64,000 bases of DNA from Acidobacteria bacterium SCN 69-37 (GTDB taxonomy: Bacteria > Acidobacteriota > Vicinamibacteria > Vicinamibacterales > SCN-69-37). Position numbers and translations under genes: made by a program. Below, one piece after another: positions 37,209 to 42,733 of the stretch; within the stretch, counting starts at the first letter, position 1; each line of letters begins with the position of its first letter. The stretch lies in NCBI GenBank assembly GCA_001724025.1, contig MEDJ01000002.1, positions 1-64,000 on the forward strand, read 5' to 3'. The notes below the pieces were generated by a model. That model was not told the DNA's origin and made no database searches. It worked only from the letters and a program-made list of their open reading frames with translations.

Positions 37209-37238
37209 TTGACGCGCCCCACCCCCCCGCACTATCCT
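37209..37238 (+). promoter_or_regulatory. Sigma70-type promoter of the asd operon leader
   Basis: TTGACG (37209-37214), an 18-bp C-rich spacer, TATCCT (37233-37238). Expected transcription start is near 37245, only about six bases before the leader ORF ATG at 37251. Confidence 0.7.
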
Positions 37239-37250
37239 TTTAACCCGGTT

Positions 37251-37343
37251 ATGGTTTCTCGCGTGTTCTCCTTCACTGCTCGAAAGTGTTCCGATCGAAA
37301 GCGGGCCAACACCGCATCGGCGGCAGTGATGGTGCACGTCTGA
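37251..37343 (+). CDS. 30-residue leader peptide of the asd operon
   Basis: A short ORF begins right behind the promoter and ends 101 bp before asd. It encodes MVSRVFSFTARKCSDRK and then RANTASAAVMVHV. No SD is present and the 5' leader would be about six bases, so translation should be leaderless. Lys codons are at 12 and 17, Thr at 9 and 21, and two Arg codons are CGA, probably rare here. Its 3' half contains the antiterminator strand (37313-37323). Its role would be to let ribosome position decide RNA folding. The amino acid sensed is not obvious because no long run of one codon exists. Confidence 0.55.
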   Translation: MVSRVFSFTARKCSDRKRANTASAAVMVHV

Positions 37344-37396
37344 GAACGGCCTGATCGTCTGGCCATTCGACCAGCCCCCACGGACCCGCCGATGCG
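37313..37396 (+). promoter_or_regulatory. Antiterminator pairing in the asd leader
   Basis: CGCATCGGCGG at 37313-37323, inside the leader ORF, is exactly complementary over 11 bases to CCGCCGATGCG at 37386-37396, which is the 5' arm of the terminator. A competing upstream pair exists: CCGAT (37291-37295) with ATCGG (37316-37320). This gives the 1:2, 2:3, 3:4 set of mutually exclusive helices of a classical attenuator. Confidence 0.7.
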
Positions 37397-37416
37397 CCGC
37401 GCACGGCGGGTTTTTT
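37385..37416 (+). terminator. Leader terminator (attenuator) ahead of asd
   Basis: Stem CCCGCCG (37385-37391), bulged A, TGCG, loop CCG, CGCA, CGGCGGG (37404-37410), followed by six T residues. It lies upstream of asd, and the only upstream plus-strand gene already has its own terminator at 36174, so it must act within the asd leader transcript. Confidence 0.85.
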
Positions 37417-37444
37417 GTTGTCCGAACGCAGTCTGGAACGTCAC

Positions 37445-38641
37445 ATGAGCACGAGTGAATCTACGGGATCCCCGCGCCGCGCGCCGCGCGTGGGCCTCAT
37501 CGGGTGGCGCGGTATGGTCGGCTCCGTGCTGCTGCAGCGGATGCGCGACGAGGACGACTTTGCCGTCATCGATCCGGTCTTCTTCTCTACGTCGCAGGCC
37601 GGCGCCGAGGGACCGCGCGTCGGGACGAGCCGGTCGGTGCTGGGAGATGCCACGGATCTCGAGGCCCTGGCCGCGTGCGACGTGCTCATCTCCTGTCAGG
37701 GCGGCGAGTACACGAGCACCGTGCACCCGCGGCTGCGCGCGGCCGGGTGGGGCGGGTACTGGATCGACGCGGCGTCGACGCTGCGCATGGCCGATCACGC
37801 GGTGATCGTGCTCGACCCGGTGAACCGCGAGGTCATCGATCGGGCACTGGCGGCCGGCGGGTGCGACTTCATCGGCGGCAACTGCACCGTCAGCCTGATG
37901 CTGATGGCCCTGACCGGGCTGTTCCGCGAGGGCCTGGTCGAGTGGGTGAGTGCGATGACCTACCAGGCGGCCTCGGGCGCCGGCGCGCAGCAGATGCGCG
38001 AGCTCGTCGCGCAGATGGGCGCCGCACACGCCTCCGTCCACACGCAGCTCGACGATCCGGCCAGCGCCATCGGTGACATCGATCGCACGATGGCCGAGAC
38101 GCTCCGCAGTTCGTCGTTTCCCACCCGCCACTTTGGTCATCCCCTGGCCGGCAGCCTGCTCCCCTGGATCGACAAGGACCTCGGCAACGGCCAGAGCCGC
38201 GAGGAGTGGAAGGGGCTGGTCGAGTGCAACAAGATCCTCGGCCGCACCGGCCAGCCGATTCCGGTCGACGGCATCTGCGTGCGCGTGGGAGCGATGCGCT
38301 GCCACAGCCAGGCCCTCACGGTGAAGCTGACGCGCGACGTGCCGCTCGGCGCCATCGAGGCGATGCTCGCCTCCGCACACGAGTGGGTGCGCGTCGTGCC
38401 GAACGAAAAGGAACAGACGCTGGCCGCGTTGACGCCCGCCGCGGTCACGGGCACGCTCACGGTGCCTGTCGGTCGCCTGCGCAAGCTGGCGATGGGACCC
38501 GAGTACCTCGGCGCGTTCACCGTCGGCGATCAGCTGCTCTGGGGCGCGGCCGAACCGCTGCGCCGCACGCTCCGCATCCTCGTCGAACACGGCGTGTCGT
38601 CGGGCGACGCCCGCACGGCGGCCACGGCGGTGCACGCATGA
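37445..38641 (+). CDS. asd: Aspartate-semialdehyde dehydrogenase
   Basis: A 398-residue enzyme that reduces aspartyl phosphate to aspartate semialdehyde with NADPH, the branch point for lysine, diaminopimelate, threonine and methionine. Motifs: [17 protein letters not shown] for the cofactor, the catalytic cysteine in [12 protein letters not shown], and [16 protein letters not shown]. These match the enterobacterial-type Asd closely, rather than the more divergent Gram-positive/archaeal type. The extra N-terminal 12 residues are Ser/Pro/Arg-rich. ATG 37445 follows CTGGAA. The stop overlaps the lysC start (ATGA). Expression is likely controlled by the attenuator just upstream. Confidence 0.95.
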
Positions 38642-40029
38642 TCGTCATGAAGTTCGGCGGCACGTCGGTGGCCGACCAGGCTGCCATCAAGCGGCTGATG
38701 GCCATCGTCCGTGCGGCACGGCAGACGGCGACTCAGCCCGAGGCCGCGGACTGGCGCGGCCCCGTCGTGGTGGTCTCCGCGCTCGGCGGAGCCACGGACA
38801 AGCTCCTGACGGCGGCCACTGACGCGGGCGCCGGTAACATCCCTGCGGCCGTCGACGCGTTGAAGGCGCTGCGGGCGCGGCACCTGGACGTGGCCGGCAT
38901 CGTCGGGGCGAGCGCCGATCGTCCGGCCGTCGACGCCTTCATCCACGATCAGTTCGACGAGCTCGAGCGGCTGGTCGGCGCGCTCGGCGTGCTGCGCGAG
39001 GTGACGCCGCGCTGGCTCGACACGATTGCGGCCGCCGGCGAGATTCTCAGCAGCCGGCTCGTGGCCGCGGCGCTCTCGGCGCACGGAATCGCGGCCGCGT
39101 GGGTCGACTCCCGCACGGTCATCGTGACCGGCGACGAGCACCAGGCGGCGCCGCCGCTGATGACCGAGACGCAGACCGCACTCTCCGCCGTGGTCGATCC
39201 GCTGCTCGCCGACAGACAGGTCGTCGTGATGGGCGGGTTCGTGGGCGCCAACACGGCCGGTGTGACGACGACGCTCGGCCGCGGGGGATCGGACTATTCC
39301 GCGGCCATCGTCGGGGCGTGTCTGGGCGCATCCGAGATCCAGATCTGGACCGACGTCGACGGGATGCTCACGGCCGATCCCCGCATCATCAAGGGCGTGC
39401 AGGTCGTCCCGCACCTGTCGTTCGGCGAGGCGTCCGAGCTGGCGTACTTCGGCGCGAAGGTCCTGCACCCGGCCACGATCCTGCCGGCCGTCGGCAAGAA
39501 CATCCCGGTCCGCATTCTCAATTCGCGGCGGCCGAACGACGCGGGCGGCACGTTGATCACGCGCGATCGCTCGCTGACCAACGGGCCCGTCACGGCCATG
39601 GCGTCGAAGAAGAACGTGACCGTCGTCGACATCACGTCGACGCGCATGCTGATGGCCCACGGGTTCCTCGCGCGGATTTTCCAGGCGTTCGAGGCGCACC
39701 GGACTGCCGTCGACGTGGTGACCACGTCCGAGGTGAGCGTCTCGATCACGGTCGACGATCCGCGACGGCTGCCCGAGATCGCGGCCTCGTTGCGTGAAGT
39801 GGCCGAGGTGACCTGCGAGGATCGCATGGCCATCGTCTGCGCCGTCGGCGACGGCCTGCAGTGCGATCCCGCGTTCGTCAGCGACCTGCTGCAGTCGCTG
39901 CGCGGAATCCCCATCCGCATGGTGTCGCAGGCTGCAGCGCGGCGGAACGTTACGCTCGTCATCCGCGAGGCCGATCTCGAAGCGGCGCTCGTCCGCGTCC
40001 ACGAACGTTTCCTGGGGGTGTCGGCGTGA
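38638..40029 (+). CDS. lysC: Aspartate kinase
   Basis: A 463-residue monofunctional aspartokinase that makes aspartyl phosphate, the first step of the pathway completed by the neighbouring genes. KFGGTSVAD opens the kinase domain; [14 protein letters not shown] and [13 protein letters not shown] are the substrate and ATP sites. Two ACT domains occupy the last 150 residues ([20 protein letters not shown] and onward), which implies allosteric feedback by lysine or threonine. It overlaps asd by four bases and dapB by four, so the three are translationally coupled. Confidence 0.95.
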
Positions 40030-40712
40030 GAATCCTGCTCATCGGTCACGGCCGCATGGGCCGGTTGATCGAACAGCTGGCTGACCAGCACGGCTGCACG
40101 GTGGCGGGCGTGGCCGAGGTGGATCGGCCCGTGCCGGCCGTCCTGGACGGCCTGACCGACGGACCGGCCGACGTAGCCATCGACTTTTCGCAACCCGAGG
40201 CCGTGCCCGGCAACGTCAGGGAACTCGCGGCCCGCGGCGTGAGCGTCGTCATCGGAACGACTGGCTGGCAGGCGCACGAGCGCGAGCTGCGCGAACTGGC
40301 CGGACACGCGGGCATCGGTGTGCTGGCCGCGGCGAATTTCTCGCTCGGCATGCACGTCTTCGCCGTGATCGTCGAGCAGGCGGCGCGCCGGTTCGGGACG
40401 CTCGACCGCGTGGGCGCGTGGATTCACGAAGCGCACCACGTGAAGAAGATCGACGCGCCGTCGGGGACGGCGCTCATGTTGAAGAAGGTGATGGAAGACG
40501 CCGGGTACGGGGCGGGGATCGACATGTCGTCGACGCGTGCCGGATCGATCCCGGGCATCCACGAGGTCGGCTTCGACGGACCCGCGGAAACGGTGACGCT
40601 GACGCACACGGTGCGCGATCGATCGGTCTTCGCGCACGGGGCACTCGAGGCCGCCAGATGGCTGCACGGGCGTCAGGGCTGGTTCACCATGCGTGACATG
40701 ATTAACGGATAG
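40026..40712 (+). CDS. dapB: 4-hydroxy-tetrahydrodipicolinate reductase
   Basis: A 228-residue enzyme of diaminopimelate/lysine synthesis. It shows the Rossmann motif IGHGRMGRLI, the substrate loop EAHHVKKIDAPSGTAL with the catalytic His and Lys, and a terminal DRSVFAHGALEAARWL. GTG 40026 overlaps the lysC stop (GTGA). It is somewhat shorter than E. coli DapB (273) because of a compact N-lobe, as in other short DapB types, but active-site residues are intact. Confidence 0.93.
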   Translation: MRILLIGHGRMGRLIEQLADQHGCTVAGVAEVDRPVPAVLDGLTDGPADVAIDFSQPEAVPGNVRELAARGVSVVIGTTGWQAHERELRELAGHAGIGVLAAANFSLGMHVFAVIVEQAARRFGTLDRVGAWIHEAHHVKKIDAPSGTALMLKKVMEDAGYGAGIDMSSTRAGSIPGIHEVGFDGPAETVTLTHTVRDRSVFAHGALEAARWLHGRQGWFTMRDMING

Positions 40713-40788: not shown

Positions 40789-41694
40789 ATGAGACTTCAG
40801 TTCACGGGTCTGGGCACGGCGCTGATCACGCCGTTCACGCGCAGCGGTGCGCTCGACGAGGCGGCGGTGACGCGGCTGGCCACGCGGCAGGTCGACGCCG
40901 GCGTGCACTTCGTCGTCCCGTGCGGCACCACCGGCGAGGCGCCGACGATGACCGAGGCCGAGCGGACGCGCGTCGTCGAACTCGTGGCCGCGGCCGTCGA
41001 TGGCCGGGCGATGGTGCTGGCCGGCGCCGGCGGCTACGACACGCGCGAGGTCATCAGGGCCGTGGCGCAGTGCGAGCATGCGGGTGCGCACGGTATCCTG
41101 TCCGTCGCGCCGTACTACAACCGTCCCACGCAGGAAGGCCTCTTCCAGCATTACAAAGCCATCGCCGAAAGTACCGCGCTGCCGATCATCCTCTACAACG
41201 TGCCCGGTCGTACCGGCTGCAACATCGAACCGGCGACGGTCGCGCGCCTGGCCGGGATCCCGAACATCGTCGGCGTGAAGGAAGCGTCGGGGAGCATGAC
41301 GCAGATCGTCGACGTGTGCCGGCGCGTCCCCTCCGACTTCCTGGTGCTGTCGGGCGACGACGCGCTGGGCCTGCCGATGATGGCGATTGGTGGCCAGGGG
41401 ATCATCTCGGTCGTGTCGAACGAGGTGCCGTCCGAGATGACGCAACTCGTCGAGGCGGCTGAGCGCGGCGACTTTGCCGCAGCCCGCCGCTGGCACCAGG
41501 CCCTGGTGCCGTTGATGCAGGTCAACTTCGTCGAGGCCAATCCGATTCCCGTGAAGGCCGCGATGGCGGCCATGGGCCTCTGCGAGGAGGTCTATCGGCT
41601 GCCGATGGTGCCGCCGAGTGATGCCGCCCGACAGCAGGTCGTCGCGGTCCTGCGGGAGCTCGGGCTCTCGGCGGCCGTGGAAGCCCGGGCGTGA
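40789..41694 (+). CDS. dapA: 4-hydroxy-tetrahydrodipicolinate synthase
   Basis: A 301-residue TIM-barrel aldolase that condenses pyruvate with aspartate semialdehyde. GLGTALITPF opens the barrel; VPCGTTGEAPTM binds pyruvate; YNVPGRTGC contains the catalytic Tyr; GVKEASG carries the Schiff-base lysine. It lies 76 bp after dapB on the same strand and completes the asd-lysC-dapB-dapA set, so the operon leads from aspartate toward DAP for peptidoglycan and lysine. Confidence 0.95.
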   Translation: MRLQFTGLGTALITPFTRSGALDEAAVTRLATRQVDAGVHFVVPCGTTGEAPTMTEAERTRVVELVAAAVDGRAMVLAGAGGYDTREVIRAVAQCEHAGAHGILSVAPYYNRPTQEGLFQHYKAIAESTALPIILYNVPGRTGCNIEPATVARLAGIPNIVGVKEASGSMTQIVDVCRRVPSDFLVLSGDDALGLPMMAIGGQGIISVVSNEVPSEMTQLVEAAERGDFAAARRWHQALVPLMQVNFVEANPIPVKAAMAAMGLCEEVYRLPMVPPSDAARQQVVAVLRELGLSAAVEARA

Positions 41695-41734
41695 GGCGCG
41701 CGAACCGGCGGGCGCCGGGGAGAGGCGGCCTGTA

Positions 41735-42733
41735 ATGGACCTGCAGACGCAGATCCGGCTGACGCGCGAATTGGTCGACATCGATTCGACCACGGGCTAT
41801 GAAGGGGCGGCCTGTGCCGCGATTGCGCGGATCCTGCGCGATCTCGGCTATACGGTCGTCGAGCAGGCAGTGAGTGACGGACGCGTCAACGTCTACGCGT
41901 CGATCGATCAACCCGCGCTCGTGTTCTCCACGCACATCGATTGCGTCCCGCCGTTCTTCCCGAGTCGCGAGGCCGATGGCCGCATCTACGGCCGCGGGGC
42001 GTGCGATGCCAAGGGCATCGCCGTGGCGCAGATCGCCGCGGCCGAGGCGCGTCGCGCGTCTGGCGCCACCGACATCGGGTTGCTGTTCGTGGTTGGCGAG
42101 GAGCGTGGCAGCGACGGGGCGCGCGTCGCGGGTGCGCTGGCGACGGGATCGCGGTTCCTGGTGAACGGCGAGCCGACCGACAACCGCCTGGCCCTGGCCA
42201 CACGCGGCGTGTATCGCGCGCGGTTGCACACGAGCGGCCGCGCCGCGCACACGAGCCAGCCCGAGCTTGGCGAGTCGGCGATCGAGAAGTTGATCGACGT
42301 CGCGGTCACGCTGCGCGACGTGACGTGGCCTGCGGATCCCGACCTCGGCACGACGTACTACACGCTGGGGGTCGTCAGTGGCGGCGTGGCGCCGAACGTG
42401 GTGCCGCCCTCGGCGATGGCGGAGATCCTGTTTCGGACCGTGAGCGATCACGACGAGGTCCGTCGTCGGCTGTCGGCCGCCGTGGGAACGATCGCGCGGA
42501 TCGAGGAAGTCCACGAGGTCCCGCCCGTCCGGCTGGGCACGGTGCCCGGGTTCGACACGGCCGTGTTCAACTTCACCACCGACGTCCCGTTCCTCGCGGG
42601 ATGGGGCACGCCCTTCCTGATGGGCCCCGGATCGATCACCGTCGCGCACACGGCCGACGAGCACGTCGAGATTTCCGAGCTCGCGCGCGCCGTCGATCGC
42701 TACATCACGCTCGCCAGAACGCTACTCGACTGA
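41735..42733 (+). CDS. M20-family metallohydrolase (DapE/ArgE/LysK-like)
   Basis: A 332-residue di-zinc deacylase. Ligands: STHIDCVPPF (His and Asp), GRGACDAKG (bridging Asp), VVGEERGSDG (catalytic Glu-Glu), NGEPTDN and a terminal VAHTADEHVE (last His). A dimerisation lid lies in the middle. ATG 41735 has GGGAGAGG upstream. Position right behind dapA suggests N-succinyl-DAP desuccinylase or another N-acyl-amino-acid deacylase of the lysine/arginine branch. The family cannot be split by eye, so no gene symbol is given. Confidence 0.85.
   Translation: MDLQTQIRLTRELVDIDSTTGYEGAACAAIARILRDLGYTVVEQAVSDGRVNVYASIDQPALVFSTHIDCVPPFFPSREADGRIYGRGACDAKGIAVAQIAAAEARRASGATDIGLLFVVGEERGSDGARVAGALATGSRFLVNGEPTDNRLALATRGVYRARLHTSGRAAHTSQPELGESAIEKLIDVAVTLRDVTWPADPDLGTTYYTLGVVSGGVAPNVVPPSAMAEILFRTVSDHDEVRRRLSAAVGTIARIEEVHEVPPVRLGTVPGFDTAVFNFTTDVPFLAGWGTPFLMGPGSITVAHTADEHVEISELARAVDRYITLARTLLD

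Follow-up and report, generated by a model that had tools for sequence, protein, structure and literature searches.

The window, by which we mean the whole 64,000-nucleotide stretch analysed, carries on its plus strand a run of genes for lysine synthesis. The first is asd, encoding an aspartate-semialdehyde dehydrogenase of the E. coli (gamma) type (37445–38641; TIGR01745, E 5.5e-176). It is followed by lysC, encoding aspartate kinase (38638–40029; TIGR00657 above cut-off), whose start overlaps the asd stop, by dapB, encoding 4-hydroxy-tetrahydrodipicolinate reductase (40026–40712; TIGR00036 above cut-off, with the GTG at 40026 as its presumed start), and by dapA, encoding 4-hydroxy-tetrahydrodipicolinate synthase (40789–41694; TIGR00674, E 6.5e-101). 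The best model for lysC is PRK09084, 'lysine-sensitive aspartokinase 3' (E 7e-131, slightly below the PRK09084 cut-off). An M20-peptidase-like ORF (41618–42733, plus strand) overlaps the end of dapA; it possibly encodes a DapE or deacetylase and may close the operon.

A sequence-only reading had described a promoter, a short ORF, alternative 1:2 and 2:3 helices and a terminator ahead of asd, and we found all of these parts where it placed them, on the plus strand between 37209 and 37416. The sigma-70-type promoter, TTGACG-18-TATCCT (37209–37238; -35 at 37209–37214, 18-nt spacer, -10 at 37233–37238), is the sole promoter-like site within 1.5 kb (0.1 in shuffles). An ATG lies 12 nt past the -10 hexamer, a few nucleotides beyond the predicted transcription start at about 37245, and opens a near-leaderless ORF of 30 codons (37251–37343; MVSRVFSFTARKCSDRKRANTASAAVMVHV*) with equivalents in relatives. 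Its sensor segment (37284–37301) holds the proposed stall sites, Lys12 (AAG, 37284–37286) and Lys17 (AAG, 37299–37301), each directly preceded by a CGA codon for Arg. In minimum-energy folds, strand 1 (37273–37295) comprises TCACTGC at 37273–37279 and CCGAT at 37291–37295. The latter forms the 5-bp 1:2 helix with ATCGG (37316–37320), which is part of a larger hairpin that also pairs TCACTGC with GCAGTGA (37323–37329) and hides strand 2. Strand 2, the switch strand, lies within the ORF (CGCATCGGCGG, 37313–37323) and matches strand 3 (CCGCCGATGCG, 37386–37396) exactly over 11 bp (-22.1 kcal/mol). Strand 3 is also the 5' part of an intrinsic terminator (37384–37416; hairpin 37384–37411, -20.8 kcal/mol; U-run of six T, 37411–37416), and is thus common to the antiterminator (2:3) and the terminator (3:4).

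We compared this element across 162 genomes of the window genome's acidobacterial order, probably Vicinamibacterales. Orthologous, gamma-type asd is present in 3 of 14 genomes of the same family, the window's own included, and the other two (G001 and G002) keep the leader, the 2:3 match and the terminator, with peptides MFDPVTTFAARKRSDRKRTKSASAAVKVCM and MARAAIFTARKRADRKRKTPVAASVGMCV, respectively. Upstream regions of orthologous gamma-type asd in the order's other families held no leader. That absence was at one point considered a refutation, and was dropped as such once a pattern search turned up the motif in family f3 ahead of a non-orthologous asd (asd_EA type, TIGR00978).

Upstream regions of asd_EA-type genes were then drawn from about 100 genomes of the order and searched with a leader rule blind to amino acids, which called for a -10 hexamer, a start codon 7–13 nt on and an ORF of 18–45 codons; families f13 and f14, where asd follows lysC, were left out of the count. 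Of 83 such regions, 61 yielded a leader, one of which (in G018) looks spurious; dinucleotide shuffles yielded 1.65 of 61. The residues most enriched in these leaders over shuffles were Lys (2.95-fold), Thr (1.65-fold) and Met (1.60-fold), all end products of the aspartate family, with Arg at 1.16-fold, and an RK..(x)RKR-type motif is kept across families. A terminator follows 59 of 60 leaders, 19–54 nt past the stop codon, and a TTGACA-like -35 precedes 32 of 59 against a background of 10%. From the end of the -10 hexamer to the start codon is 7–13 nt, the range that the rule permitted, and mostly 9–11 nt (59 leaders); because of this spacing, the leader mRNA is probably nearly leaderless.

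A covariance model built from an alignment of 45 leaders detected the element in 90 of the 162 genomes, usually upstream of asd, including where a non-orthologous form has replaced it; in the window's family, the matches with E above 0.05 that we inspected look spurious. Two non-orthologous types of asd sit behind the leader, asd_gamma in the window genome (G000), G001 and G002 and asd_EA elsewhere (for example, 37445–38641 in the window versus 1646–2692 in L042), and it seems that the enzyme was exchanged while the leader stayed. One leader-bearing match (L087) is listed under the genus Luteitalea in the genome collection, which points to Vicinamibacterales as the order. A pattern scan of 84,980 species genomes gave mostly chance matches; those followed by asd were members of the leader set, and all except L129 also had a terminator. 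Outside the order, 39 asd upstream regions drawn from further acidobacterial orders and classes contained no leader.

The sequence-only reading implied that strands 2 and 3 (37313–37323 and 37386–37396) should covary in relatives, and they do. In the 45-leader alignment, 75.6% of cells in the 2:3 helix pair, both sides have changed in 6 of 11 pairs, none of 500 shuffles reached the observed covariation score, and every slid version scored lower. The 3:4 terminator helix also covaries, as does, more weakly, the 1:2 helix of the f3 type. Because kinship inflates such counts, the pairing evidence rests mainly on the differing sequence solutions between families: the window's CGCATCGGCGG/CCGCCGATGCG becomes CCCGTGTCGG/CCGACACGGG in f3 and GGCCGGTGGT/ACCGCCGGCC in f2. 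A per-leader duplex test with mononucleotide shuffles (14 of 60 leaders at P<=0.01) is weak in GC-rich DNA, and we therefore replaced it with a between-family swap test, in which the ORF end of each leader was paired with its own strand 3 or with the strand 3 of other families. Own pairings scored 21.6 on average, above all 5000 random reassignments (maximum 20.3), and the own mean was higher in 11 of 12 groups. Antiterminator and terminator, which exclude each other through strand 3, are thus both conserved. Since it recurs with covariation in dozens of relatives, the element is far beyond chance.

The sequence-only reading had also called for competing structures to be folded and had reasoned that a ribosome stalled at Lys12 or Lys17 would free the switch strand; the predicted folds bear this out. 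In minimum-energy folding, the free RNA of the window leader adopted 1:2 plus the terminator. Placing a ribosome on Lys12 or Lys17 made the rest of the RNA fold into the 2:3 antiterminator, and with one on the stop codon the full-length RNA reverted to the terminator. The ensemble probability of the window terminator fell from 0.94 in free RNA to 0.50 with a stall at Lys12 and 0.00 with a stall at Lys17. Two results count against our best explanation. When a ribosome sits at the stop, where it leaves strand 2 uncovered, and strand 4 is not yet made, the model still permits 2:3. Across 59 leaders, the equilibrium ensemble flipped in only 20 when stalled and in 0 at the stop, although equilibrium folding is a poor judge and not strong evidence here because antitermination is kinetic.

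In the trp attenuator, a ribosome at the stop codon covers strand 2. Here, a ribosome at the leader's stop adjoins strand 2 on its 3' side without covering it, and the switch would therefore hinge on the masking of strand 1, unlike in trp: to turn the operon OFF, 1:2 has to re-form in the wake of the ribosome, and to turn it ON, strand 1 has to be masked. RNA polymerase would start at about 37245 and a ribosome would engage the near-leaderless ORF almost immediately. With charged Lys-tRNA at hand, it would clear Lys12 and Lys17, and the 1:2 hairpin would form behind it or after its release, leaving strand 3 free for the 3:4 terminator to end transcription at about 37416. Under lysine shortage, the ribosome would stall at Lys12 or Lys17 and mask strand 1, and strand 2 would pair with strand 3 while strand 4 is still to be transcribed, allowing read-through into asd-lysC-dapB-dapA. 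If the leader were left untranslated, 1:2 would form and the operon would be off.

We then compared the codons of the leaders with the genes behind them. Besides asd, matches to the covariance model lie ahead of lysC (G067, G061, G015, G021), thrB (G001, G015), hom followed by metY (G054, G056, G057) and metY (G073). Genes 3' of asd were checked in 19 genomes. Leaders of asd with lysC-dapB-dapA behind it contain Lys; those of asd with hom and/or metY behind it (G072, G071, G069, G059) lack Lys and have Met, as in MARPTDSTPAAAMRMMAMRMTGIGGGAVSGP. At least one Lys occurs in 19 of 19 leaders of lysine operons (asd/lysC-dapBA and lysW-lysX) but in 0 of 8 leaders of methionine operons (asd-hom-metY, hom-metY and metY), whereas at least two internal Met occur in 8 of 8 methionine-operon leaders (2–7 Met) and in 0 of 19 lysine-operon leaders (Fisher 4.5e-7, or 1.4e-4 when collapsed to genera, which are still not fully independent). 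Leaders of thrB have 6–8 Thr and 3 Ile. The lysW-lysX genes belong to the alpha-aminoadipate pathway, an unrelated route to lysine; their Lys leaders (...RKRKCPYIGGPCWPRR) were observed in family f13, at L306 (G124), L307 (G123) and L308 (G122).

The window genome was also seen to have a second leader, MSTGARITAITMQKTTRTMKGREAGSGVARIA, which is Thr/Ile-rich, is accompanied by a terminator and lies upstream of thrB, itself followed by a thrC-like gene. This leader (L310) is on the minus strand of a separate contig (G000:C24:132200-134200, model match at 133881–134043, E 0.047), and its peptide contains six Thr, three Ile, two Lys and two Met.

The element thus has a short ORF between the promoter and the first gene, codons at the switch that specify the amino acid made by the pathway behind it, and a terminator ahead of the first structural gene. 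We conclude that a ribosome-mediated transcription attenuator of the leader-peptide kind very probably controls asd-lysC-dapB-dapA, as the sequence-only reading had proposed: relatives keep both the 2:3 pairing and a leader ORF with Lys codons. We infer this regulation from the computed parts, their conservation and covariation, the in-frame Lys codons, the match between codons and operon, and the predicted flip in folding; the transcription start, translation of the ORF, its coupling to transcription, stalling and the response to lysine are likewise predictions. Lysine as the signal for the window leader is supported because the same scaffold has Met without Lys in methionine operons and Thr/Ile in threonine operons. 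Several points count against attenuation: the window leader has just two Lys codons, a low number by classical standards, Arg and Thr are prominent in its peptide as well, and orthologous asd in the order's other families has no such element ahead of it.

Lysine may not be the sole signal, because Thr codons are enriched too; those in the window leader possibly contribute to sensing. The attenuator might then sense several aspartate-family amino acids jointly, Lys with Thr and sometimes Met or Ile, with lysine as one input, a variant that we regard as possible though doubtful. The further idea that such sensing acts as a logic gate, matching the concerted feedback of a branched pathway, is equally tentative. 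Asd is a branch-point enzyme, leaders ahead of asd-lysC-dapBA in f15 and f8 carry Thr or Thr/Ile runs together with Lys (MTRTIITITVTTRKRELD...), and the thrB leader of the window genome mixes all four residues. Yet there are just two Thr in the window leader, the second being the codon immediately ahead of strand 2, leaders of the methionine type are without any Lys, and some Lys leaders (that of G037 and those of lysW) are without Thr.

Quite improbable, in our view, is arrest by the nascent peptide, in which a basic RKxxxRKR peptide would slow the ribosome in the exit tunnel and cause pausing independent of tRNA charging. The basic motif is kept over many families, more than two Lys codons would need, but RKxxxRKR is missing from methionine-operon leaders built on this scaffold, Arg is barely enriched over the null, and the spacing and number of basic residues vary.

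Lysine riboswitches (L-box, RF00168) lie upstream of lysC, asd and dap genes and respond to lysine, often through an intrinsic terminator. The genes are the same here, but the aptamer is absent, and the Lys codons are the proposed sensor. The sequence-only reading had noted no L-box, and RF00168 matched neither the window nor, in a search whose stricter filters could lose weak matches, any of the order's 162 genomes; controls from E. coli, B. subtilis, T. maritima and L. lactis were positive. An Rfam scan of the window returned no family at cut-off, T-box and SAM riboswitches included at their gathering cut-offs, and at E up to 1 the sole match near the leader scored 16 bits where 70 was required. 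It is thus very unlikely that a metabolite-binding riboswitch, for lysine or another ligand, operates here with the ORF and the repeated CGAAAG being incidental or part of an aptamer. In favour of this reading, conservation of CGAAAG extends to the nucleotides, CGA being the Arg codon of nearly all Arg-Lys pairs though rare in asd and dapA. Nevertheless, the sensor region varies strongly between families while the sensor codons stay in frame and match the operon product, CGAAAG is in frame 0 in 70 of 71 cases (partly a selection effect), and the start codon lies close to the -10 box, within a narrow range of spacings.

Hardly credible is an unregulated or protein-regulated terminator, or a small-RNA end, beside an ORF that is there by chance or serves as a ribosome 'antenna' for asd: a strong terminator does lie near asd and reinitiation after a leader has been suggested for other bacteria (PMC4833913), but the 2:3 pairing that covaries excludes 3:4, the in-frame sensor codons track the pathway, and reinitiation at asd is unlikely because the terminator intervenes and leader stop and asd are about 100 nt apart.

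The leader-peptide attenuator that we favour is an ordinary mechanism in principle. Such attenuators are known from the trp, his, thr (thrL), ilv and leu operons of Proteobacteria and the trp and ilv operons of Actinobacteria, with which the present element shares a short ORF containing product codons, mutually exclusive antiterminator and terminator, a U-run and a biosynthetic operon downstream (PMC1262725). The Thr/Ile-rich leaders ahead of thrB and of asd in f15 resemble thrL. Unlike in the classical cases, the amino acids that appear to be sensed are Lys and Met, the host belongs to the Acidobacteriota, the ORF is near-leaderless, strand 2 lies within the ORF upstream of its stop so that strand 1 masking would be the key step, and one scaffold has exchangeable sensor codons. 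A broad survey found the phylum almost without predicted attenuators of assigned function (PMC2965389). Searches of the open literature, which leaves out most subscription papers so that absence is not proven, found no lysine or methionine leader peptides, nor any attenuators in Vicinamibacter-named taxa. As far as we searched, then, what is new is the amino acids sensed, the phylum, and the single scaffold with sensor codons exchanged to fit the operon.

Lysine genes are a textbook case of riboswitch control, and T-box and SAM riboswitches control Met, Thr and Lys genes in Firmicutes by metabolite or tRNA supply. The logic of aspartate-family control is the same here, with a translated leader as the proposed sensor; an order without a detectable lysine riboswitch appears to rely on leader-peptide attenuation instead. 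We think it likely that one scaffold has spread within this order over asd, lysC, thrB, hom, metY and the unrelated lysW pathway, with sensor codons exchanged among Lys, Met and Thr/Ile per operon and sometimes combined into multi-amino-acid sensors, and that these are the first leader-peptide attenuators for lysine and methionine. Codon swaps that follow operon content (Lys for asd with dap genes, Met for asd with hom-metY) would amount to a natural experiment on the evolution of regulatory specificity, and the sensor codons offer a direct way to predict the amino acid sensed by each operon.

Two further observations were made on the leaders. In 71 of 78 cases, the Arg codon directly before Lys is CGA (37281–37298 in the window), which in asd and dapA serves for 1 of 51 Arg. 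On visual inspection, CGA also stands before some Met and Ile codons in leaders of the Met and Thr types. Rare-codon pausing and an RNA-level constraint are candidate reasons for this bias. In G024 and G025, asd has a Lys-bearing leader (in G024 ahead of asd-lysC-dapBA), and a second lysC (L294 in G024, where hom follows, and L293 in G025) has a leader of its own with mixed Thr, Met and Ile codons. The paralogous aspartate kinases of these genomes may, judging from their leaders, sense different products.
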